From Kiritimatiellia bacterium (GTDB lineage: Bacteria > Verrucomicrobiota > Kiritimatiellia > RFP12 > UBA1067), in contig JAFSMR010000032.1 in assembly GCA_017447805.1 (NCBI GenBank), positions 1-64,000 of the forward strand: a DNA stretch of 64,000 bases, read 5' to 3'. Position 1 is the first letter of the stretch. Every line of letters begins with the position of its first letter. The notes below the pieces were generated by a model, which saw nothing but the letters and a program-made list of their open reading frames with translations, did not search any database and was not told the origin of the DNA. Positions 38,192 through 49,687 of this stretch are shown here, one piece after another. Both the position numbers and the translations under genes were made by a program.

Positions 38192-39922
38192 TTAGATATC
38201 GACATCTACAGAAACATCACCTTTGTCGGTTGCTGCCGCGGCTCCATCGCTCTTTTCTTCCTTGGCTTTCAAGGTTGCCTGAGGGAGGTAGCGATAGTAT
38301 ACCATCAGCTGCAATGCGGCTAGACACGTATCCATCACGGGACGCGCCGAGTGGCGATCGTTATTCTGCCAATACGCGCATTCGCGCGGCTTGCCGTCAG
38401 GGCCCGGAATAGTGCCATCGGCTTTCATCTGGTTAGGATAGAAAGCTTTCATCGCCTTATTCCATTCCGCCCAGGCTTCTTTATCGGCGGCAGATGCGCC
38501 TTCCGCCATGCCAGCCTGGAATTTGCACTGCGAAGCATAGTAGTAGTAATACTGCGGGCTGTGCCAATGACCTTTCGGGTGTTCGTGAGTAAAGGGGCCT
38601 GCGTCGCCGACATCGAAGTTCGGCCTCCAGCCTTTCATTACTTCAAGAGCATCGCGAACTTTTTGGTCTTTGCCGTAGCCAAGAAGTTGCATCGCGAGGC
38701 ATCCTACACCGGCAAGACCGGCGTATGCTTCGTAATATCGCTTTCCTGGTCGGTATGCAAAGCCAGTGCGCTTATTGGCGTTTCGCGTGCGCAAGCAGTT
38801 GATCGCTTTGGCAATGCATTCTTCCATGCCATCGACATGTATGCCAGCTAGCTTACCTGCCTTGATTGCCTGAATGCACCAACCGCCATAGGAAATATCG
38901 TCCGGTTCGGCCGCTTCACTCTTCAATCCGTAGTTCCAACCGCCTGTAGGAGATTGGTTTTTGACCATACGAGTAAGGCCATGGAGGGCTGCTTCCTTAA
39001 CATTGGGATTCTTTGTCATACCATACGCTTCGCAAAGGGCGTAGGTGGAAATCAAGAAACCATATTCTTCTGCGCCGGCTCCATCGATTGTCCATGTTCC
39101 GCCTTTCGTCTGCTTTTGGTGGGTAGTAATCCACTCGATCGCGTTTTTGACGGTCTCGCCGAATTCTTTCGATTTTGGCGTCTCGCCGTGCGCGAGGAAT
39201 GTGAGAAGGGCTAGGCCCGTGCAAGCTGCGCGCGATTTATAATGGCAATTCGGCGCGGCTTCCCAGCTGCCTTTTTGGTCGCCATCCTTCACCTGAGTCT
39301 TCTTAAGCCAACGGAGGGCTTTATAGACGGCTCTTTCGGTCTCCTGGTCGCCATACATCGCACCGCCTCGTGTAGCTACGCCGATCGAGCCGGGCGTTCT
39401 AGAGCCGACCATCGACTTCATCTTGACTGGCGAGTTGACGAATGCTACGGTATCTTGCGTCGCCGGCTTTACCGAAACTTGCGTCGCGGGAGGCGCGGCG
39501 ATTGGCGCGAGATTCGAGACTGGGCCGGGGGTAGGATTATCGATTTGAATTTCGACATCTTCCATCGGCGGCGGTTCTGACGGAGGTTCATCCGGCGGCT
39601 CTTCCTGTTCTTGCTCTTCCGGCGCTTCCTCGACTTCTTCGGCCGTAGCTACGGTTACTTCGATAGTCTTAGAACTCTTGCCGGAAATTGCCGTTACGAC
39701 AATCAAGATTACAACGAACAGGACAACTGCGATAATCGCAATCAGCGGGGCCATGAGGCGCTGCATTTCGATTCTCGCTTCTTTATATTCGCGCGTATTG
39801 TGTGGCTTGCCGAGACCCGACATCATCGTAATAAGACGGGAGAAAAATCCTTTCGTCTCGTAACGTTTGCCGAGTTCTTCAATATCAATACCTTCGTCTA
39901 GTGTTTCAACTTCTTCGCTCAT
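38192..39922 (-). CDS. TonB-positioned membrane protein with periplasmic squalene-cyclase-like domain
   Basis: The 576-residue protein has a cytoplasmic N-terminus (1-55), one TM helix (about 56-80), a Glu/Pro-rich linker (about 94-123, EEPPDEPPSEPPP), and a large periplasmic domain (about 190-560). The domain carries repeated alpha/alpha-barrel motifs of the prenyltransferase/squalene-cyclase type (ALRWLKKTQ, SWEAAPN, GGWNYGLKS, YGGWCIQAI). This is the architecture of TonB, but with a toroid in place of the TonB C-terminal fold. It directly follows ExbB and two ExbD genes. The cyclase aspartate motifs are not evident, so a binding rather than catalytic role is likely (inference). Confidence 0.82.
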   Translation of the reverse strand: MSEEVETLDEGIDIEELGKRYETKGFFSRLITMMSGLGKPHNTREYKEARIEMQRLMAPLIAIIAVVLFVVILIVVTAISGKSSKTIEVTVATAEEVEEAPEEQEQEEPPDEPPSEPPPMEDVEIQIDNPTPGPVSNLAPIAAPPATQVSVKPATQDTVAFVNSPVKMKSMVGSRTPGSIGVATRGGAMYGDQETERAVYKALRWLKKTQVKDGDQKGSWEAAPNCHYKSRAACTGLALLTFLAHGETPKSKEFGETVKNAIEWITTHQKQTKGGTWTIDGAGAEEYGFLISTYALCEAYGMTKNPNVKEAALHGLTRMVKNQSPTGGWNYGLKSEAAEPDDISYGGWCIQAIKAGKLAGIHVDGMEECIAKAINCLRTRNANKRTGFAYRPGKRYYEAYAGLAGVGCLAMQLLGYGKDQKVRDALEVMKGWRPNFDVGDAGPFTHEHPKGHWHSPQYYYYYASQCKFQAGMAEGASAADKEAWAEWNKAMKAFYPNQMKADGTIPGPDGKPRECAYWQNNDRHSARPVMDTCLAALQLMVYYRYLPQATLKAKEEKSDGAAAATDKGDVSVDVDI

Positions 39923-39939
39923 GATATATTACTCCCCTA

Positions 39940-40383
39940 TTACATAGTGAACACACTAACGCTGTAAAGTTCGTTTTTGTAGCAAATATCGAGAACATCT
40001 ATAAGCGCTTTATGGGGACTATCCGTCGCACATTTAACGATTATAGGTGTTTTCTTCGAGGTCTTTGCAATATCTTTAAGATATCTATCGAGCTCTTCTC
40101 TTGCTACTTTAGCCGAACCCGAAGGCCCGCCAAGAGCCTTCTTGTTATAGACTATAACGCCATGCGGGCTATTATCATAGCGGCGGCCGATTTCGATGTT
40201 CACCGTGATATCGTCAGATGCATCAGATGAACTCGAAGAGGCGGGCGCAGGACGGTTGACATTGAGTTTAGAAAGCACATCCTCCGTCTTGATCGTTACG
40301 ACGAAGAAGATGATGAGTTCGAACACGACGTCAATCATCGGCGTCATATCAAGAGCAGGGTTTTCTTGAGGTCTCTTGCCCAT
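39940..40383 (-). CDS. exbD: ExbD/TolR-family protein, second copy
   Basis: A 147-residue proton-channel subunit. The short cytoplasmic N-terminus (MGKRPQENPALDMTPMIDVV) leads to one TM helix (FELIIFFVVTI); the conserved Asp is in PMIDVVFELIIFF. The periplasmic domain (about 58-147) contains GVIVYNKKALGG, ELDRYLKDIAKTSKK and SPHKALIDVLDICYKN. It works with ExbB to turn proton flow into movement of a TonB-like partner. The periplasmic part is closely mirrored in the lipoprotein at 47006-48427. The first 31 residues are almost identical to those of the upstream copy. Confidence 0.93.
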   Translation of the reverse strand: MGKRPQENPALDMTPMIDVVFELIIFFVVTIKTEDVLSKLNVNRPAPASSSSSDASDDITVNIEIGRRYDNSPHGVIVYNKKALGGPSGSAKVAREELDRYLKDIAKTSKKTPIIVKCATDSPHKALIDVLDICYKNELYSVSVFTM

Positions 40384-40386
40384 AGA

Positions 40387-40881
40387 TTACTTCCTCCTCT
40401 TCCATTTGTCGAGATGTGGACGGCTAGGCGTCTTTTCACTAGTTCTATCTTCATAAATCGCCATGAAGGAAATCTTCCAAATGCCTGCGGAAGTGCAAGC
40501 ATTCATGACTTTGGCGATTTCGGAGTGTGGCGTATCGTAGTCGGCGCGGATGAGTATCGGGAATTCGCCGATTCTCTTCTTTTTATCCTCTACGCGACGC
40601 TGCAGTTCGCTAGTAGAAATTTCACGATCTGCCATTGATATGCGGGCGTGACGAAGGCGGTTGCCTTTTGTATCACGAATCGCTACATCAATTTGCATGT
40701 GGGTGGGCGGAAGTTCTTCTGGCGTAAGCACTATGCCATTCGTTCCGTCCTCTAGCTCAATCGTCTCATCCTTCTTCTGCGATTCGGTAAGAGTAACGAC
40801 GAAGAAGATGATGAGCTCGAATACGACGTCGATCATCGGCGTCATATCAAGAGCTGGATTTTCTTGAGGTCTCCTTCCCAT
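40387..40881 (-). CDS. exbD: ExbD/TolR-family protein, first copy
   Basis: The 164-residue protein has an N-terminus and TM helix nearly identical to the following copy (NPALDMTPMIDVVFELIIFF) but a different periplasmic domain. That domain shows VDVAIRDTKG-like strands, ISTSELQRRVEDKKKR and ILIRADYDTPHSEIAKVMNA (two parts of one helix-strand unit). A basic tail (DKWKRRK) follows. The near-identity of the TM parts with divergent heads suggests a duplication with head specialisation, perhaps a heterodimeric ExbD pair. It lies 3 bp before the second exbD. Confidence 0.93.
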   Translation of the reverse strand: MGRRPQENPALDMTPMIDVVFELIIFFVVTLTESQKKDETIELEDGTNGIVLTPEELPPTHMQIDVAIRDTKGNRLRHARISMADREISTSELQRRVEDKKKRIGEFPILIRADYDTPHSEIAKVMNACTSAGIWKISFMAIYEDRTSEKTPSRPHLDKWKRRK

Positions 40882-40913: not shown

Positions 40914-41732
40914 TTAACCTTCTACAGGGGCTTCTTCACCTGCGACTTCGACATTTCTGAGGCCGTTCAAGAATTCCATCGTTGTCGCGGTCATTCTGAG
41001 AATCAAGCGGTTGGCATTGTTTCTGAGCGAGTAGAACGCGGTAATAGAAGGAATCGAGACGATTAGACCGCCAGCAGTTGTCCAAAGCGCCTGACCGATT
41101 GATTTAGCGAGTTCCGCAGCACCTACGTTACCGGTAGCGAGCGTTTGGAACGTCAAAATCATGCCTTGCACCGTACCGAGAAGGCCGAGCGACGGGCCGA
41201 GGTTACCGCAGACCGAAACCCAGTTGAGGCGCTGCATCATCTTTTCCTGTTCGAGGTCGGAGGCCGCAGTAACGGCTTCCTGAATTACATCGAAACCTTC
41301 TTCTACATGCTGGAAGGCGGCAAGAAGAATATTCGACATTGCAGAAGGGGTATTCTGGCAAGCTTCCATAGCAGCAACGATATCGCCTTGCGACATGGCG
41401 GCCTGAACCTTATCGATAAGACGAGCAGGCATGAGTTTTTCGGGCTTGATCATGATCATGCAGTCCACCGAGAAGTAAATAGCAAGCATGCCATCGCCGA
41501 AAAGTGCGAACCAGAGGAGCATACCGACGATACCTGAACCAAACACGATTTCGTAGAAACCACCCGCATCTTGAGGCTTCGCGGCCGCGTTGTCGTCGAC
41601 TTTTTGGCCATCTGCGCCTTCGAGCTGGCCGGCTTCGCCTTCCTGAGCCAAAGATTGGATGGCAACGATTGGCGCAGCACATGTGCCTACGGCAATCATC
41701 AGTGCGAGTAGTGATTTCTTGATCTTATTCAT
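40914..41732 (-). CDS. exbB: ExbB/TolQ/MotA-family proton channel subunit with signal peptide
   Basis: A 272-residue protein. An N-terminal signal-like segment (KKSLLALMIAVGTCAAPIVAI) and a linker rich in Gln/Gly/Asp precede TM1 (about 70-90). The conserved MotA/TolQ/ExbB domain (about 110-260) has NLGPSLGLLGTVQGMILTFQ and AELAKSIGQALWTTAGGLIVSIPSI (in two helices). Periplasmic extensions of this kind occur in many PVC and Bacteroidota ExbB proteins. Strong AGGAAGG ribosome site. It forms the motor with the two ExbDs just downstream. Confidence 0.95.
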   Translation of the reverse strand: MNKIKKSLLALMIAVGTCAAPIVAIQSLAQEGEAGQLEGADGQKVDDNAAAKPQDAGGFYEIVFGSGIVGMLLWFALFGDGMLAIYFSVDCMIMIKPEKLMPARLIDKVQAAMSQGDIVAAMEACQNTPSAMSNILLAAFQHVEEGFDVIQEAVTAASDLEQEKMMQRLNWVSVCGNLGPSLGLLGTVQGMILTFQTLATGNVGAAELAKSIGQALWTTAGGLIVSIPSITAFYSLRNNANRLILRMTATTMEFLNGLRNVEVAGEEAPVEG

Positions 41733-41792: not shown

Positions 41793-42566
41793 TTAAAGCT
41801 GCTTTGCCTTTGCTTCCATATCGTTGGCTCGCGAGGCCTGATTGAGTTTTCTAAAGCAATCGGCTGCCTTCATATACGCTTCGCGTCTGGCGTTTTTGCA
41901 AGGATCGTCGCCATACATAAGCGCGACTCTGAGATAGCCATCGGTAAGCGCCTTCGTATAGCTTTCATTCGAACCGCCGCCCTGCGCTAGGATTATATCG
42001 CCACGCATATTGAGCGCCGCAGCGCTGGAAGCCCTATCGCCGCTTGTCGCGGCTTTCTTGAGGCAGTTTTCGAGCTGTGGAATTTTGCCGAGCTTGAGAA
42101 GCACTTGCCAGTAGGCAGGTGCGAATTCGCCGGTGAACGCCGCATCTTTATTATCGTTTAGGATGCTCTGCGCTACCTTATTCGCCTCATTCGCATCTCC
42201 CGAATCAAGATAGGCGCTAACAAGCCATCTTGCGGCGGGCTTATCCCAATTCAGCATCTTGTAATCGGCAACAATCTGCTTGAGAAGGGGAATGGCCTGC
42301 CTGCCTTGTTTGTTGCCGACCATTTCAATCGCCTTGCCGAGGTTCGCCGGCTCCGGGATTTCCAGCGAATCGACTTCGTTCTCCTTGAAATTACCGTTGA
42401 CTACGGTATTGCCTTTCTTATAGGCAACCGTATATTCTTTAGATGCAACTTTCCACTTGATGTCGCCCTGAACAGGCGCGCCTACCTTGGGGTAGATCGT
42501 TCCTTGTATTGCCCACGCTGATGAAATCGCGGCGATCGCAAGTGCAGAGAGTACTAGCTTTTTCAT
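41793..42566 (-). CDS. Secreted TPR-like protein
   Basis: A 257-residue protein with a signal peptide (MKKLVLSALAIAAISSAWA). A short N-terminal beta region (KWKVASKEYTVAYKKGNTVVNG) is followed by helical TPR-like repeats (QAIPLLKQIVADYKMLN; ARWLVSAYLDSGDANEANK; GEFAPAYWQVLLKLGKI). It lies directly between the large TPR protein and exbB, so it is a probable periplasmic adaptor for the motor complex, in the place where Tol systems have CpoB/YbgF (positional analogy, inference). Confidence 0.8.
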   Translation of the reverse strand: MKKLVLSALAIAAISSAWAIQGTIYPKVGAPVQGDIKWKVASKEYTVAYKKGNTVVNGNFKENEVDSLEIPEPANLGKAIEMVGNKQGRQAIPLLKQIVADYKMLNWDKPAARWLVSAYLDSGDANEANKVAQSILNDNKDAAFTGEFAPAYWQVLLKLGKIPQLENCLKKAATSGDRASSAAALNMRGDIILAQGGGSNESYTKALTDGYLRVALMYGDDPCKNARREAYMKAADCFRKLNQASRANDMEAKAKQL

Positions 42567-42571
42567 TTTTA

Positions 42572-45500
42572 TTATTCTCCTTCAGATTGGTTTTCTTCAG
42601 AATCCTGGGGTTCTTCCTGGACTTCTATTGTTTCGACTGGTGTAGAATTTTCTTGTTTATTGGTTTCTTGTGCGGCAGATTCGGCTGCTGCTTTTTCTTC
42701 TTCTTCGCTAGGCATTACGGCGCCTGCGGCTTCAGCTTGCTGCATTGCATTTCGAATTTCCGTTCTCGCACTTCCGTTCGGGAAGGTTGCGAGGTAATCG
42801 GAACCGAACTTCAACACAAAGCCGCCTTTTTCCGGCCCGAGCTTTGCAAGAAGAGGAACGAGAAGGGTATAGGCTCTCTCGAGGTTCTTTACTTCCTGTG
42901 CCGATAGTTCGTCAAATGTCTTTTCTTGGGAATTCTTAGCAACTTCCGCGAGCGCTTTCGCTTCTTCTTCGCTTAGCCCCTCGGTTGATACTTGCGCCTT
43001 TTCTTTGACCGGCTGATGCGCCTGGAGGAACGCCTGCAATGTCGCTGCGGCCTGCTCGCCGGTTTCTTTCGATTCTTCCTTGAATCCCATATCGGCTTCT
43101 GCGTTCATGCGTCGAATACGGATTTCAGCGCTCATGAGGTCAAGCGAATCGCGCTCAGCCTGCGGTTTCTTGGCCCAGTATTGCGTTCTTAGACGCTTCA
43201 AAGCGCCCATAGCCGCAGCAAAATGCTTCTTTCTGAGATTCGTATCTTTTTCGGTCAAGCCCTGTGCAGAGGCGACATCGACCAAAAGGAAGTTTGCATC
43301 TGCCGCTGCGGAAAGATTCTTCAGCTTGGGATCTTCGAGAATTTTATCGATATATTCGCGCGAAGAAATATAATCCTTTTGGTTATAGTAAGATTTCGCC
43401 TGTCCGATTCTTGCGCGAGCTACGGCAGTTGGTAGGTTTGTGCTGGCAAGATTAATCGCTTTGTTGAATGCTTCGTCAGCCAAGAGCCAGCTCTTTGCGT
43501 TGATAAGCGATTCGCCTGCTCTTACGAAGTCCCATGCGGTGTAGTTGCCATCTGTCTTGAGCATATCGCGATAGATTTCGGTCGCCTCTTTGTTCATACC
43601 CATTTCGATCAAGCTCTTGGCGAGGCGCGGCATGGCGTCTTTCGCTTCAGGCGAATCCGGGAAGCGTTGAGCAAGGCGCGCGAGGGCATCCTTGGATTTC
43701 TCGACATCTCCCATCGCCGTATAGAGCGTTCCGAGAAGGACATAGGATTTCGCCGCATATTTGCCCTGGGGGAACTGTTTTACATATTCCTCTAGGTTGT
43801 CGGCGGCATTCTTACGGAAAAGTTCAACCTTGGCAGCAGGCTTCTTCAGACGGCGCCAGCTATCGCCGGTTAGGAATAGCGCGCCTTCCTTAAGATCGGA
43901 ATATTTCGCTTTGTCATTTGCGGTGATTCCAGGGTCTGCGAGCTTCTTGTCGGCATCTGCTGCAAAAGCGCGGAAATCTTTGATGCCTTGAATAATCTGT
44001 GCGCAGCCTTTTGCTTCCTGCTCGGCCGCGACTTGTTCGTTTTCATTCGTCTTAGCGCCGTCGATCATCGCAAAACCGGTCTTTTGGTAGGTCATTGCAC
44101 GGTTCATTTGAGCTTGCGCTTTGCGGAGGGGGTTTTCTTCGGCTTCGATATATTTCGTCAATGTCTGAATCGCATTGGCGGTATCGCCGATCTTATCATA
44201 GCAATACGCGAGGCTCGATAGGGAAGTCGCGTAATAGTGGTTCTTGCTATAATACTTGCCGAAGAGTTCCCAGAGCGCGATGGCGTCTTCCCACTTTTCT
44301 GCCGTCTGCAATTCGCCAGCCATAGATGCAGCCATTACAGGAGCGTTTGAGTGGCGACGATAATTCATAAAGAAGGCTTTTTGGAGCTGATCGGCCCTCG
44401 TCAAATCGCCGCGACTCTTTTCGAGACCTGCCGCACGAATTACTGCGTCGCCCGCGAGAGTCATTACCGTATCGTTTTGATTGCCGGCAAAGCGTTCGGC
44501 AAGATACCCCTCGATTGCGTCGAGATCCATTCTCCAATCAGCTTTCTTCGGGCTGTCTTTTGTGCGCGGGTCGCGCATGAGGGTATTATAGCTATTAATG
44601 ATAGATTCGATAGCCTGAATCGATTCTTTGCCTTCCGGGTAGGAGCCGAGGGTCGTAAGAAGATCATTGATCGATTCTTCGTAATTACCTTCGGCCGCCA
44701 TTGAATATGCCGCTGCGAATTGCATCTGGCGCACGCGCTGCATCTGCTCTGGCGTTACTTTACTCTTTACCGTCGCGCCGAATTTTTCGGTGGCGAATTC
44801 GGCGATCGCCTTTTCCATATCGCCGGCTTTTGCGGCCCACGCAGATTCCGGATACTGCACGAATACGTTCAGCGCATGGTTGTAGGCGCCTTGTCCATTG
44901 CGCTTCTTGCCCGAGACAATTGCGCCGAAGAGGAGGCTCTTTACTTTTTCGTTGTCTTTAGTAGGCTTGGCTTTGTATTCTTTCTGGGCTTCATCCCAAA
45001 GGATTTGCGCCAGCATGAATCGGCATTGTGGCATTGGCGACTGCTTAAGGAGGCCGTAAATGCCATCTGGATCGACTTCTTTGATCTGCGCGTGGAGCTC
45101 GGCGAGCTGATCCATATAGTCGTCAATCGTGCTCTGGGCTTTTTCGACGCTGCCCCTCAAGAGCTCAATGTGGGCGAGCATCGCAATTGCACGGCCGAAA
45201 AAGACGGGGCGATCTTGCTCCCACAAAAGCTGGTCGACGATGACCTTGGCTTTATTGAGCAAATCGGTGCGATCTTTCGGCGTAGGCTTTTCTGCGGCGA
45301 GGCGCAGATAGATTTCCGCCGTTTCGCTTGCGACATTGCACCAAGTATTGGCGTCATCGTCGCTCGCGCCCTTATCGATCTGTTTCAAAAGCCCCTCGTA
45401 ACGTTCGGCGGCCTTTGCGAGCTGCTTATCGCCGAGAAGAATTTGCCCGTATGCGTAAGAAGCTTCATGATAGAATTTCTTGAGTTCTTTTGGCGGGGTC

Positions 45501-45925
45501 GGGAACTTTTTGAAGAACTCGTTATAGATATTCGAGCACTCGGTCTTTTTACCCTGCTGGTTGAAGCTGTTTGCGACTTCCAATCGAGCAGCCCAATATT
45601 TAGAGCCATTTCGATCTGGGAGTGCGGCAATGCGCTTTTCGGCTTCCTCCTGTTTACCGAGCGAGATCATCGCGCGTATTTCAATAGCAAAGAAGCTTGT
45701 GTCGGCTTCCGGCCCAGGCCATTTCTGCTTCGCCGCCTCGATTACGGGCTGCGCAAAATCAGGTAGCGCGGCGTCTACAAGAGCTTCGGCATACCTGATT
45801 TCATCTTGAAGCGCGGTATCTAGCTGTGGGGCAGATCCGCTTTCACCTTCTTGCGAAAATGCGCTCATCGCGGCCGTGCAAACCGCTGCTAGCGCAACAC
45901 ATACTTTCAAATTCTTTGAACTCAT
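42572..45925 (-). CDS. Large periplasmic TPR protein heading the ExbBD operon
   Basis: A 1117-residue protein with a signal peptide (MSSKNLKVCVALAAVCTAAMSAFS), then TPR repeats along nearly its whole length (for example KSYVLLGTLYTAMGDVEKSK, SPEAKDAMPRLAKSLIEMGM, AIQTLTKYIEAEENPLRKAQ). The C-terminal 60 residues are Glu/Gln-rich and disordered-looking (ESAAQETNKQENSTPVE). ATG 45925 is chosen over the upstream GTG (45943), which overlaps the -10 box. First gene of the operon; divergent from the lipoprotein genes. It probably acts as a scaffold for the motor in the periplasm (inference). Confidence 0.85.
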   Translation of the reverse strand: MSSKNLKVCVALAAVCTAAMSAFSQEGESGSAPQLDTALQDEIRYAEALVDAALPDFAQPVIEAAKQKWPGPEADTSFFAIEIRAMISLGKQEEAEKRIAALPDRNGSKYWAARLEVANSFNQQGKKTECSNIYNEFFKKFPTPPKELKKFYHEASYAYGQILLGDKQLAKAAERYEGLLKQIDKGASDDDANTWCNVASETAEIYLRLAAEKPTPKDRTDLLNKAKVIVDQLLWEQDRPVFFGRAIAMLAHIELLRGSVEKAQSTIDDYMDQLAELHAQIKEVDPDGIYGLLKQSPMPQCRFMLAQILWDEAQKEYKAKPTKDNEKVKSLLFGAIVSGKKRNGQGAYNHALNVFVQYPESAWAAKAGDMEKAIAEFATEKFGATVKSKVTPEQMQRVRQMQFAAAYSMAAEGNYEESINDLLTTLGSYPEGKESIQAIESIINSYNTLMRDPRTKDSPKKADWRMDLDAIEGYLAERFAGNQNDTVMTLAGDAVIRAAGLEKSRGDLTRADQLQKAFFMNYRRHSNAPVMAASMAGELQTAEKWEDAIALWELFGKYYSKNHYYATSLSSLAYCYDKIGDTANAIQTLTKYIEAEENPLRKAQAQMNRAMTYQKTGFAMIDGAKTNENEQVAAEQEAKGCAQIIQGIKDFRAFAADADKKLADPGITANDKAKYSDLKEGALFLTGDSWRRLKKPAAKVELFRKNAADNLEEYVKQFPQGKYAAKSYVLLGTLYTAMGDVEKSKDALARLAQRFPDSPEAKDAMPRLAKSLIEMGMNKEATEIYRDMLKTDGNYTAWDFVRAGESLINAKSWLLADEAFNKAINLASTNLPTAVARARIGQAKSYYNQKDYISSREYIDKILEDPKLKNLSAAADANFLLVDVASAQGLTEKDTNLRKKHFAAAMGALKRLRTQYWAKKPQAERDSLDLMSAEIRIRRMNAEADMGFKEESKETGEQAAATLQAFLQAHQPVKEKAQVSTEGLSEEEAKALAEVAKNSQEKTFDELSAQEVKNLERAYTLLVPLLAKLGPEKGGFVLKFGSDYLATFPNGSARTEIRNAMQQAEAAGAVMPSEEEEKAAAESAAQETNKQENSTPVETIEVQEEPQDSEENQSEGE

Positions 45926-45934
45926 GATGTTGGT

Positions 45935-45940
45935 ATTATA
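45935..45940 (-). promoter_or_regulatory. Predicted -10 box of the TPR-ExbBD operon
   Basis: Minus strand TATAAT in GTGTATAATACC, 9 bp before the ATG. The leader would be very short and lacks a ribosome site, so this start may be near-leaderless as well. Confidence 0.55.
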
Positions 45941-46050
45941 CACTTTATCCCTGTTTGACGCAAGGGGGGAGACGCAAAAATCTTATTTTGATTTTTTCGC
46001 TTCTTTTAGACTTTTTTCGTCCCCTACTAGCCATTTTGCCGCAAATTTGC

Positions 46051-46056
46051 TATAAT
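46051..46056 (+). promoter_or_regulatory. Predicted -10 box of the divergent lipoprotein operon
   Basis: TATAAT in GCTATAATATGAAG, 29 bp before ATG 46086, with a GGAGAT ribosome site between. About 110 bp separate it from the opposing -10 box of the TPR-ExbBD operon, so the two units could be co-regulated. Confidence 0.6.
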
Positions 46057-46085
46057 ATGAAGAAAATAGTGGAGATTTTAAGCTT

Positions 46086-46979
46086 ATGAACAAGATAATT
46101 TGCGCCGATCGTCGTATTTCAAGATGCGCTAATTTTGCGATTTCGCTTGCTTTAGCGGCAATTTTGGCAGGTTGCGGCGATTCTGGCGATGAAGCGAGCA
46201 ACTCGAGCGAAGGGGAGATCACTCTAGCTCAAGAAGCCGATACGCCCCTAGATAGCGACGCTGCGCTCGATGCGATTTCAGATATTTCTAGCATGCGAGG
46301 GATGGAATATTCTCGCCGCGCGCCGATACTCAGCGCGCAAGATCAACAGGTTGCGCTATTGCCTTGCTCAAATAAAGTCGCCGAGCGCTTAGTCGAGTTT
46401 CATGCCTCGCGCGGCGGCAAAACCAACCTTCTTGTCTGGGAGGCGTGCACCCTAATCGGGAAAGACAAAGAAGTTATCAAAGGCAAGGGGCCTTTATTAT
46501 ATAGAGTAGAAAAGTTGAACGACACCCTATATATGCTCTACTCAACTCTCAGCGACAGCCCTAAAGACGAAAAGAAATTCTCTTTTGTCATTACCGACGG
46601 CAAAACCATTCGCCGGGTTGTAGAATTTTCGGCGATGCCTAGCAATCGCGTGATTATGAGGATTATGGAAGCGACTAAAGATTCTGTCGCACTAAACGAT
46701 TTAGCTGCGATGATTTTCAACGGAGATGAAAATTGCCGGACTGCTGATAAGGAATATTGCGAAAAGCTCCTCCAAAATGCCGCCTTGGATGGAGAATGGA
46801 TGGCTTGCCGCAATTTAGCATTCCTTTATAAACTAGATCGTGAAAAAGATCATAGTCACTATTGGGCAGATTTGGCAGAAAAAGTATTTCAGCGCTCAAT
46901 ACCAGGCGAAATCAGAAAGCCCATGAAGAAAATACCTGTTTCTGCATGGCCGATAATGAGTGAAGCTCTTGGTTTTTAA
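46086..46979 (+). CDS. Lipoprotein with Sel1-like C-terminus
   Basis: A 297-residue product. Lipoprotein signal with lipobox LAGC (Cys30; ISLALAAILAGCGDSGDE). A Glu/Asp-rich tether (about 31-70) follows, then a domain of unknown type (SRRAPILSAQDQQVALLPC ... FSFVITDGKTIRRVVEF). The C-terminal ~80 residues resemble Sel1/TPR helices (LQNAALDGEWMACRNLAFLY). First gene of the operon divergent from the ExbBD cluster and 26 bp upstream of the ExbD-like lipoprotein. Function unknown; envelope localisation is clear. Confidence 0.8.
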   Translation: MNKIICADRRISRCANFAISLALAAILAGCGDSGDEASNSSEGEITLAQEADTPLDSDAALDAISDISSMRGMEYSRRAPILSAQDQQVALLPCSNKVAERLVEFHASRGGKTNLLVWEACTLIGKDKEVIKGKGPLLYRVEKLNDTLYMLYSTLSDSPKDEKKFSFVITDGKTIRRVVEFSAMPSNRVIMRIMEATKDSVALNDLAAMIFNGDENCRTADKEYCEKLLQNAALDGEWMACRNLAFLYKLDREKDHSHYWADLAEKVFQRSIPGEIRKPMKKIPVSAWPIMSEALGF

Positions 46980-47005
46980 TAATTAATAAAGATAGGAAGC
47001 TGAAT

Positions 47006-48427
47006 ATGATGAATCATATTATCTTGAGCACTATTGCAATCTTGCTTGTTGGTTGCAGCAAGCAGGAACAACCACCTGCAAGACCAGCAGCTGAAGATGT
47101 TGCACTTGCTGCGGCGGAGGCAATGGTCAATCTTGATGAGCAGTCGTTTGTCGCATTGCTGGATTCTCCAGACGAAAAAGATAGACAAGATTATAAATGG
47201 CTTTTTTCAGAAGAGAGCTTTATCTATTTGGGGATGAAGAACCTTCAAAAAGAGAACCCGAAGTTTGCGGTAGTGTATCGCGGTTCTACTTGGCCTACAT
47301 CTTCTGATGAAGCGCCGGAAGGTGTAGCGGCTGTAAAGGCTTCAGCCGAAATATTATCTTCTGGCGAAGGCGAACTCGTGGATTCGGATGGAAATGCGTG
47401 CTTGGCAGTAATCCCAACGGAACCTGGCAAAGGAAAATACGAGGATAGATATTTCGATACCTATTGCTTTGTAGATGGCAAGATGGGGTTGTTAATACCG
47501 CTAAAAATCGTAAAAAAGGATGGCGCGTGGTTTGTTGATAAAGAAACGATGCGAGATTTGTGCAATGGTGAAACGATAATTCCGCCAAACCTATACAAGG
47601 ATAGTTCTATTCACCGGCCGGCTCGTCTCATGAACAGCCCCGAGCAGATATTTGCCGAAAAATCTGCTATGTGGTGTGAGGAAGTGGAACTCGCCGATGT
47701 AAATTATGGAATGCAATTCACTCCAGATATGTACGATGAACGTAGCATCGTCGTAGATGTTCGCTCGGTCGATAAACAAGGTCGCCATCTTCGATCGGGC
47801 TTGATATGCAGCGTGGACGAATTGCACGATACAATCCGCAATCTAATGCGCAACCCAGCCTCGCAAGAGCCTAAAATCATAATTCGCGCCGATTTTGAAG
47901 CCAAGCACATAGATATCGCGAAAGTAATGAATGCGGCAACCTCGGCCGGAGTATGGAAATTTTATATAATGGGTCTCGAGGAAAGCGCTCAAGCACGCCA
48001 GCGCCTTAATCGAGCTGGTCGCAGTTATCGTTTTATGGTCAAAGAGAACACCACATCTTTTGATAAATTTTCTCTTCTAGTTGTAGTTCGCCCAGCCCCT
48101 TCAAGTTGCGCAATGTTTGAGGACGAAGACGAAGAAGGCGTGCCGTTGATGGGCTATAGCGCGCAAAATTATGTTCGTATAGATATCGGACGCCGCAACG
48201 ACTCGAATCCGCAAGGCGCAATAGTATACAACAAGAAAGCCCTTGGCGGCGATTCCCAGACTATGTTGACGGAACTCGATGGATGCTTGGAAGAACTCGC
48301 CAAGACATCGAAGGATGTTCAAATTGAAATTTCTTGCACTTGCGATAGCCCGCATAAAGCGCTGGTCGACGTTCTCGATCTCTGCTACAAGCATGGCCTA
48401 AAGAATATAAGTTTATTTACAATGTAA
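47006..48427 (+). CDS. Lipoprotein carrying two ExbD periplasmic-domain copies without TM helices
   Basis: A 473-residue protein. Lipobox LVGC gives lipid-modified Cys17; there are no other membrane segments. Residues about 40-200 form an unrecognised domain. Residues about 246-325 match the periplasmic head of the first ExbD (40387-40881): both have IRAD, then IAKVMNA-x-TSAG-x-WK. Residues about 388-473 match the head of the second ExbD (39940-40383): IDIGRRND, then IVYNKKALGG, LAKTSK, SPHKAL(V/I)DVLD(L/I)CYK and a C-terminal FTM. The two heads are fused in operon order but lack the proton-channel helix. A decoy, cap or anchoring partner of the ExbD heads is likely (inference). Confidence 0.9.
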   Translation: MMNHIILSTIAILLVGCSKQEQPPARPAAEDVALAAAEAMVNLDEQSFVALLDSPDEKDRQDYKWLFSEESFIYLGMKNLQKENPKFAVVYRGSTWPTSSDEAPEGVAAVKASAEILSSGEGELVDSDGNACLAVIPTEPGKGKYEDRYFDTYCFVDGKMGLLIPLKIVKKDGAWFVDKETMRDLCNGETIIPPNLYKDSSIHRPARLMNSPEQIFAEKSAMWCEEVELADVNYGMQFTPDMYDERSIVVDVRSVDKQGRHLRSGLICSVDELHDTIRNLMRNPASQEPKIIIRADFEAKHIDIAKVMNAATSAGVWKFYIMGLEESAQARQRLNRAGRSYRFMVKENTTSFDKFSLLVVVRPAPSSCAMFEDEDEEGVPLMGYSAQNYVRIDIGRRNDSNPQGAIVYNKKALGGDSQTMLTELDGCLEELAKTSKDVQIEISCTCDSPHKALVDVLDLCYKHGLKNISLFTM

Positions 48428-48433
48428 CGGAAT

Positions 48434-49687
48434 ATGCCAAAGAAAAAAGCAGTCGGAACCGAAAAGAAAAAGACCCTCGCGCTAGTTTCGCTAGGATGCG
48501 CGAAGAATGCCGTGGATTTGCAAAATCGCGTCGGTGCGCTTTTGAAGAATGAATATATTCTTTCGCGCGACCCGGATCGTGCCGATACGGTATTAATCAA
48601 TACTTGCGCATTTATAGAATCTGCGCGAAAAGAAGCCGAGGCCGAAATCGTCCGTGCGATTCAATTAAAATCGAAGGGTAATTACAATAAGATAATTGTC
48701 GCGGGCTGCTATCCACAGCGCTATCCGGCAGCGCTAGCGCGTTTCCCCGGCGTAGATGAATGGTTAGGTGTTCCAAAAGATTGGCAAAAGCCGTCGATAC
48801 CAGGGCTTCGTTTCACCGGCAAAGCCTATGCATATTTGAAAATTGCCGAGGGCTGCTCGCACCGTTGCGCATATTGCGCTATCCCGGCGATTCGCGGACG
48901 CTTTCGCTCGCGACCTGAGGCAGATATAATTGCCGAAGCTCGAGCATTGTTGAAAAGCGGCTGCCGCGAGCTTAATATCGTAGCGCAAGATCCTATGCTT
49001 TGGCGCGGCGAAAATAAACGCAAACTCCCGGACCTACTTTGGAAACTCGATTCTCTAAAAGGAGATTTTTGGATACGCGTACTTTATTCATACCCGAATG
49101 AAATAACAGAAGAGTTTGTCGAGTGGATGAATTTAGCTCGTCACGCAGTAAAATATATAGATGTTCCACTTCAACATACCGTGCCGGAAGTTCTTGAGAA
49201 GATGAATCGCGCGCGCGCAATCGCGGCATCGCGCGAGGCACCTTTCGTTTTGCGCGAAGTAATACCTGGTGTTACCTTAAGAACTACAATCATGGTCGGT
49301 TTCCCCGGCGAAACGGAAGCTCGTTTCAAATGGCTTTTAAGCGATTTAAGGCGTATGCAATTCGATCGCCTTGGCGTTTTTGCCTATAGCCCCGAGGAAG
49401 GGACAATTGGAGCGCAGATGCGCGGCCGACCTTCAAAAGCAATTGCCCTCAAGCGCGAAAAAGCCGTTGCGCGCCTCGCGAGCGATATATGGGAAAAGAA
49501 AGCCTTGCGACTAGTCGGCTCTCGCTTTAAGGCGCTTGTAATCGCCTCTGGTGTCGCAAGAATGGAATCGCAGGCGCCGGAAGTAGATGGTGTAGTTTAT
49601 CTTGATTCTGATGCGGTAGGTGAATTTGTGGAGGTGGAACTTGTTTCGGTAAAAGGTTGTGATTTCGATGGAAGGGTGGTTTCATGA
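48434..49687 (+). CDS. rimO: Ribosomal protein S12 methylthiotransferase RimO
   Basis: A 417-residue radical-SAM methylthiotransferase that modifies Asp of S12. The N-terminal cluster motif is SLGCAKNAVDLQNRVG, with further Cys in INTCAFIES and VAGCYPQRYP. The radical SAM motif is GCSHRCAYCAIPAIRG (CxxxCxxC), and a C-terminal TRAM-like domain ends the protein. RimO is favoured over MiaB by GCAKN (RimO: GCPKN) and length. It starts 7 bp after the ExbD-like lipoprotein gene. The next gene overlaps by ATGA. Confidence 0.92.
   Translation: MPKKKAVGTEKKKTLALVSLGCAKNAVDLQNRVGALLKNEYILSRDPDRADTVLINTCAFIESARKEAEAEIVRAIQLKSKGNYNKIIVAGCYPQRYPAALARFPGVDEWLGVPKDWQKPSIPGLRFTGKAYAYLKIAEGCSHRCAYCAIPAIRGRFRSRPEADIIAEARALLKSGCRELNIVAQDPMLWRGENKRKLPDLLWKLDSLKGDFWIRVLYSYPNEITEEFVEWMNLARHAVKYIDVPLQHTVPEVLEKMNRARAIAASREAPFVLREVIPGVTLRTTIMVGFPGETEARFKWLLSDLRRMQFDRLGVFAYSPEEGTIGAQMRGRPSKAIALKREKAVARLASDIWEKKALRLVGSRFKALVIASGVARMESQAPEVDGVVYLDSDAVGEFVEVELVSVKGCDFDGRVVS

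Follow-up and report, generated by a model that had tools for sequence, protein, structure and literature searches.

Ton and Tol motors are powered membrane assemblies in which the periplasmic heads of ExbD or TolR are tied to a proton channel. In ExbD of Serratia and Escherichia coli, the strand that follows the transmembrane (TM) helix forms a closed dimer and is displaced on TonB binding (PMC10771500), and a single TonB D-box strand, in which hydrophobic and polar residues alternate between flanking prolines, is captured by one ExbD dimer (PMC10907165). The heads of TolR and ExbD are also known to bind peptidoglycan in one of their states (PMC4646322, PMC10771500), which strand-swapped TolR dimers do not (PMC4646322). 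A further relevant protein is SanA, which resides in the inner membrane and has its DUF218 domain (PF02698, PRK10834) in the periplasm; in E. coli, septal peptidoglycan synthesis becomes unbalanced when SanA is lost (PMC13251401).

The window analysed here, a stretch of 64,000 nucleotides from a gut bacterium of the Kiritimatiellia, carries at 47006-48427 (+ strand) a gene for a putative lipoprotein of 473 residues with an ExbD1-type and an ExbD2-type head in tandem, as recognised from its open reading frame, Pfam and a scan of its own genome. With the ExbD/TolR family (PF02472), the protein shares the head fold, the strand order, the post-TM dimer strand and the conserved motifs RAD...H...GxWK and SPHKAL...LD; it differs in the absence of the Asp-bearing TM stem and in joining two unlike heads in one chain, and head pairs of this kind are found on putative lipid or other anchors. 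The canonical ExbD1 and ExbD2 of the neighbouring operon are direct paralogues of its first and second head, in the same order, but they are encoded by separate genes, act as motor subunits with TM stems, and are conserved through the genus and the order. The described capture of the TonB D-box by an ExbD dimer (PMC10907165, PMC10771500) has a counterpart in a head pair and a partner strand of matching pattern, which here also lies directly behind the TM helix of the partner; however, the captor there is a motor-bound homodimer, whereas here it would be an unpowered single-chain heterodimer, whose binding of the strand is presumed. Known SanA proteins have no ExbD heads, in contrast to two relatives in which a SanA-like domain bears an ExbD1-ExbD2 head pair, while the window protein lacks a SanA domain. 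A literature search of partial coverage found no description of such a head-pair protein.

Two ExbD-type heads in a putative lipoprotein

The gene is preceded by a ribosome-binding-like AGGAAG (46995-47000), and its in-frame codon score of 0.051 per codon, against -0.079 and -0.048 in other frames, is weaker than those of the exb operon genes. Direct reading of the sequence places a putative signal peptide at 47006-47056 (+), with a lipobox L-V-G-C at residues 14-17 and Ser at position +2. The first-pass annotation had pointed out this lipobox, which is indeed present with its Cys as in bacterial lipoproteins, but the n-region, MMNH, contains no Lys or Arg and thus departs from the positively charged n-region of such proteins; for this reason, a lipid anchor is likely rather than certain, and anchoring in the outer or inner membrane is plausible. 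The following domain (residues 18-224; 47057-47677, +) was assigned to no family by Pfam, genus search or predicted structure: no convincing homologue was found in 61 genomes of the genus, AlphaFold gave no confident model, and residues 1-210 scored z of about -0.7 against ExbD1 or ExbD2 in Smith-Waterman alignments with 500 shuffles. An NTF2-like fold was considered for this domain and dropped, as it had no profile support in Pfam. The real function of the protein could reside in these N-terminal 200 or so residues. A profile search with the window protein gave no DUF218 match, unlike the SanA-type head-pair proteins of relatives.

The remainder of the protein is ExbD-derived. The Pfam ExbD model (PF02472) matched it in two stretches with 43.2 bits (cut-off 25.4; E-value 4.8e-11), and both halves were recovered as ExbD matches when its own genome was scanned. 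Using head HMMs built from 46 ExbD1 and 49 ExbD2 heads, with the ExbDs of its own operon included and the window protein excluded, head 1, delimited by these models as residues 225-336, scored 58.9 bits with the ExbD1 model against 8.5 bits with the ExbD2 model, and head 2 scored 97.9 bits with the ExbD2 model against 19.7 bits with the ExbD1 model. Alignment to both ExbDs, as proposed by the first-pass annotation, agreed with this assignment (Smith-Waterman, 500 shuffles): head 1 reached z=27.9 with ExbD1 and z=0.5 with ExbD2, and head 2 reached z=54 with ExbD2 and z=8.2 with ExbD1. By tblastn, head 1 is 37% identical to the ExbD1 of its own genome (match 224-331), and head 2 is 55% identical to its ExbD2. 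The fusion of two periplasmic ExbD heads in operon order, both put forward by that annotation, is thereby borne out, on firmer ground than first claimed; its placement of the heads at residues ~246-325 and ~388-473 was right in location and too short in length, since the homologous stretches also take in the strand after the TM position and the linker (EEVELAD; LLVVVRPAPSS) and span about residues 225-337 and 353-473.

Head 1 (residues 225-337; 47678-48016, +; HMM, tblastn) starts with the strand EEVELAD, which aligns with ETIELED of the own ExbD1, and head 2 (residues 353-473; 48062-48424, +; HMM, tblastn, trees) with LLVVVRPAP, aligned with SKLNVNRPAP of the own ExbD2, and carries a subclade-specific KKALGG insertion. 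Judged from sequence, the dimer-forming post-TM strand (NIBS) is thus present in both heads, and ExbD homology begins immediately after the missing TM helix. No 19-residue window of the protein reaches a hydropathy of 1.6 and no TPMID-like Asp stem is found, in agreement with the earlier claim that the helix with the proton-carrying Asp is absent, whereas both ExbDs of its own genome carry the stem TPMIDVVF. As the single TM helix with this Asp, the defining feature of ExbD, is missing, the protein is ExbD-derived yet not classed as an ExbD, and because it has no TM stem, its insertion into ExbB is not expected.

Predicted structures are consistent with this picture. In a Foldseek search with the full model, the sole PDB matches at E<=0.001 were ExbD and TolR heads (probability 1.00), including ExbD bound to a D-box peptide. 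In the AlphaFold model, the strands and helices of both heads resemble those of ExbD and follow its order, with pLDDT values mostly of 83-96 in head 2 and about 75 in head 1; the pTM of the two-head region, 0.63, leaves the packing of the heads unsettled. ExbD1 heads were left out of the alignment for structure prediction, as a mixed alignment had put them on head 2. Sequence, fold and paralogue assignment together support the earlier description of a pseudo-ExbD that has lost its stem and kept both heads.

The head-pair gene lies outside the exb operon. It comes second in a short, divergently oriented unit, and 142 bp separate the start of this unit from the first operon gene. The unit begins with a putative lipoprotein gene (LAGC; 46086-46979, +), which ends 26 nt before the head-pair gene and is probably co-transcribed with it, and continues 6 nt downstream with a rimO-like gene (48434-49687, +), named by sequence likeness and probably part of the same transcription unit. 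Diverged homologues (34%) of the 46086-46979 lipoprotein occur in G029 and G005, relatives from the same subclade. The G+C content drops to 0.43-0.46 over 46000-48500, compared with about 0.51 in the exb operon, and the strand bias changes at 45943/46086. On the minus strand, the operon comprises, in order, a long TPR protein (42572-45943) and a short one (41793-42566), both recognised from open reading frames, profiles and synteny; an ExbB/TolQ-type proton channel protein (40914-41732; PF01618, 1.1e-23; TIGR02796 tolQ, 5.2e-18, under the model cut-off); canonical ExbD1 (40387-40881; PF02472, 2.7e-20) and ExbD2 (39940-40383; PF02472, 5.4e-19), the donor types of heads 1 and 2, respectively; a TonB-like protein (38192-39922); and a LolC/E-like gene. 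The same arrangement is kept throughout the genus and, minus the last gene, at a more distant locus (L100); pairs of ExbD1 and ExbD2 can also be recognised in further families of the order (L023, L029).

Profiles and motif comparison give the TonB-like protein one TM helix and a squalene-cyclase-like C-terminal domain. Right after the helix lies the strand IEVTVAT, recognisable across the genus, which resembles the E. coli D-box ISVTMVT in what is a short pattern match. Its Pro-rich linker holds a second beta-strand motif, EVEIxVD(N/T)P, recognisable across relatives; it reads EVEIQIDNP in this protein and is more conserved than IEVTVAT. The peptide of the TonB-like protein taken as candidate ligand of the head pair is KTIEVTVATAEE.

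Head pairs in related genomes and their origin

The window protein is not a singleton, as six further single-chain ExbD1-ExbD2 head pairs were found in rumen and gut Kiritimatiellae, uncultured bacteria mostly from ruminant guts. In all seven proteins an ExbD1-type head precedes an ExbD2-type head, with different anchors in front: one TM helix in G009, three hydrophobic stretches in G065 and G058, and a SanA/DUF218 domain in G078 (L078, 5490-6911) and G099 (L128, 70-1464), while the protein of G076 is cut by a contig end. The SanA domain was identified in G078 (PF02698, 3.7e-20; PRK10834, 1.7e-46) and assigned in G099 by likeness to it; G099 belongs to a sister genus in the same family as the window genome. 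The head pairs of these relatives lie on contigs other than those of the exb operon, and their genomes also carry canonical exb-operon ExbDs elsewhere. As the profile matches to ExbD are significant too, neither of the two outcomes that the first-pass annotation had named as counting against it was seen. A phylum-wide sample of 388 genomes yielded no further head pair, although absence from incomplete metagenome-assembled genomes is weak evidence, and none appeared among the viral contigs and plasmids searched. A scan of genome contigs with the full window protein returned no relatives, its patterns lying mostly outside the heads, and in the Pfam scan of the genus for head-only ExbDs, canonical ExbDs crowd out weaker ones among the matches listed.

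Two other proteins were noted during these searches. In G003 and G077, a lipoprotein (GGC) with one clear ExbD1-type head is encoded at L051 1986-2927 and L079 4347-4904, with 97.9% identity over 710 bp; the first half of the G003 protein was tried as a second head, was not significant by HMM, and the protein was therefore counted as one-headed. The G065 head-pair gene is followed immediately by a gene of similar layout for a 303-residue protein with three TM helices (L075, 582-1493), in which hidden heads were suspected but not supported (HMM E-value of about 4).

The trees bear on whether the head pairs share one origin. When other head pairs were left out and columns filled in fewer than 30% of rows were removed, which should include KKALGG, head 2 of the window protein was sister to the ExbD2 of its own genome (87/72), within a group of four (86/87) to all of which the KKALGG insertion is common. 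At the DNA level, two stretches of 47 and 41 bp are left at 83% identity to its own exbD2. The TM and SanA head pairs are without the insertion and form a clade of their own (100/99). With all head pairs included, the window protein joined the others weakly (79/87), which we read as long-branch attraction, because the insertion is shared with its own group and the tree without the other head pairs places it there. The insertion, the sister position and the separate clade of the other pairs therefore suggest that the window protein is probably a separate, later product of its own operon and that ExbD1 and ExbD2 heads were fused on two or more occasions. A single origin of all head pairs is a conceivable alternative, favoured by the union in the all-row tree and opposed by the insertion and by the position of head 2 beside its own ExbD2. 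Head 1 was too diverged for placement in a tree.

The window protein occurs in one genome and has evolved very fast, with branches of 1.36 and 3.64 changes per site, and for these reasons no orthologue shows selection on it. In relatives, the head-pair module is under purifying selection: dN/dS over the heads of the TM-type proteins was 0.30-0.36 for most pairs and 0.59 for the closest pair, which has few changes, and it was 0.36 for G078 against G099. Furthermore, a head-pair segment of 842 bp is shared between two distant species (G009 and G065; L117 9701-10542 and L118 9950-10791), with 94.4% DNA identity over essentially its whole length, from just after the TM anchor to about 8 bp beyond the stop codon, behind N-terminal anchors that differ. 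Its dS is 0.07, compared with 0.59-0.82 in the genes for ExbB, ExbD1, ExbD2 and the TonB-like protein of these two genomes, and this contrast, together with the differing anchors, points to a horizontal transfer in the recent past in which the anchor was exchanged.

Possible roles of the head pair

The heads belong to the right paralogues in the right order, keep their dimer strands, have lost the stem and are borne on varied envelope anchors. On this basis, the reading we favour, although we put it at somewhat less than an even chance, is that the window protein is a single-chain, unpowered ExbD1:ExbD2 head dimer, anchored in the envelope and passively binding a strand of the TonB-like partner. 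The motor itself would use an ExbD1:ExbD2 heterodimer, and the window protein would be a one-chain copy of its heads, detached from the proton channel and held at a membrane in the periplasm, probably by lipid. Its two heads may fold onto each other as those of the motor would, and the resulting intrachain dimer would passively bind the ligands of motor heads, most likely the D-box-like strand behind the TM helix of the TonB-like partner, with peptidoglycan as an alternative ligand. Without power of its own, such a protein could limit or position the transfer of force by serving as a holder, a competitor or a sink. More tentatively, the head pairs may represent a mobile module, repeatedly made and exchanged in gut Kiritimatiellae, that catches the transducer or the wall from lipid, TM or SanA anchors.

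Other explanations place the function elsewhere. The fused heads might serve as a peptidoglycan-binding anchor that ties its carrier, whether lipoprotein, membrane protein or SanA, to the wall and leaves the motor untouched; this is unlikely, despite the peptidoglycan binding known for TolR and ExbD heads, the variety of anchors and the fusion to SanA with its tie to the balance of septal peptidoglycan synthesis, given that the head pair keeps the dimer strands, that strand-swapped TolR is the form without such binding, and that an ordered ExbD1 and ExbD2 pair suggests selection for a heterodimer, for which a wall anchor would have no use. The model of the first-pass annotation, in which the real heads are capped, blocked or received, would here mean that the anchored heads swap strands with the real ExbD1 or ExbD2 heads and cap the motor or regulate it; it appears rather improbable. 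Although the heads derive from the paralogues of the same genome with their dimer strands kept, and the divergent start 142 bp away allows joint control with the operon, one head of each type in the chain means that the interface can be self-satisfied, the head pairs of relatives lie apart from the operon, and the heads are far diverged from their own ExbDs (the 37% and 55% above). The dimer strands and the D-box-like strand point at least as strongly to pairing within the chain and to binding of the partner or peptidoglycan as to capping.

Two further explanations concern the spread and the retention of these genes. A decoy against parasites of Ton/Tol systems, such as phages or bacteriocins at entry, spread as an accessory gene, would account for the patchy distribution, for the near-identical 842-bp segment moved between genomes and for the similar pattern of the one-head lipoprotein of G003 and G077; we consider it very unlikely, as the searches of viral contigs and plasmids gave no phage or plasmid link and the SanA fusion common to two genera looks like housekeeping. 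There is a similarly slim likelihood that the protein is a recent by-product, decaying or neutral, of a duplication that joined exbD1 to exbD2 after a lipoprotein gene: its presence in one genome, its long branches and its codon score below those of the operon genes would fit, but 473 codons run without a stop, the head motifs are kept, the fold is still recognised, and other lineages keep this architecture at a dN/dS of about 0.3-0.36.

Taken together, our results suggest that such head pairs constitute a Ton/Tol-type binding module, unpowered and so far undescribed. If the favoured reading of a passive single-chain head dimer is true, a retained and horizontally exchanged head pair would be the first known sign of the use of these heads apart from the channel, as well as evidence from nature for an ExbD1:ExbD2 heterodimer at work in motors that have two exbD genes. 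As a ready-made single chain, the fused head pair could serve both to solve the structure of the dimer and to test partner capture, and the proteins that carry it would represent a class of passive Ton/Tol partners that is new to description.
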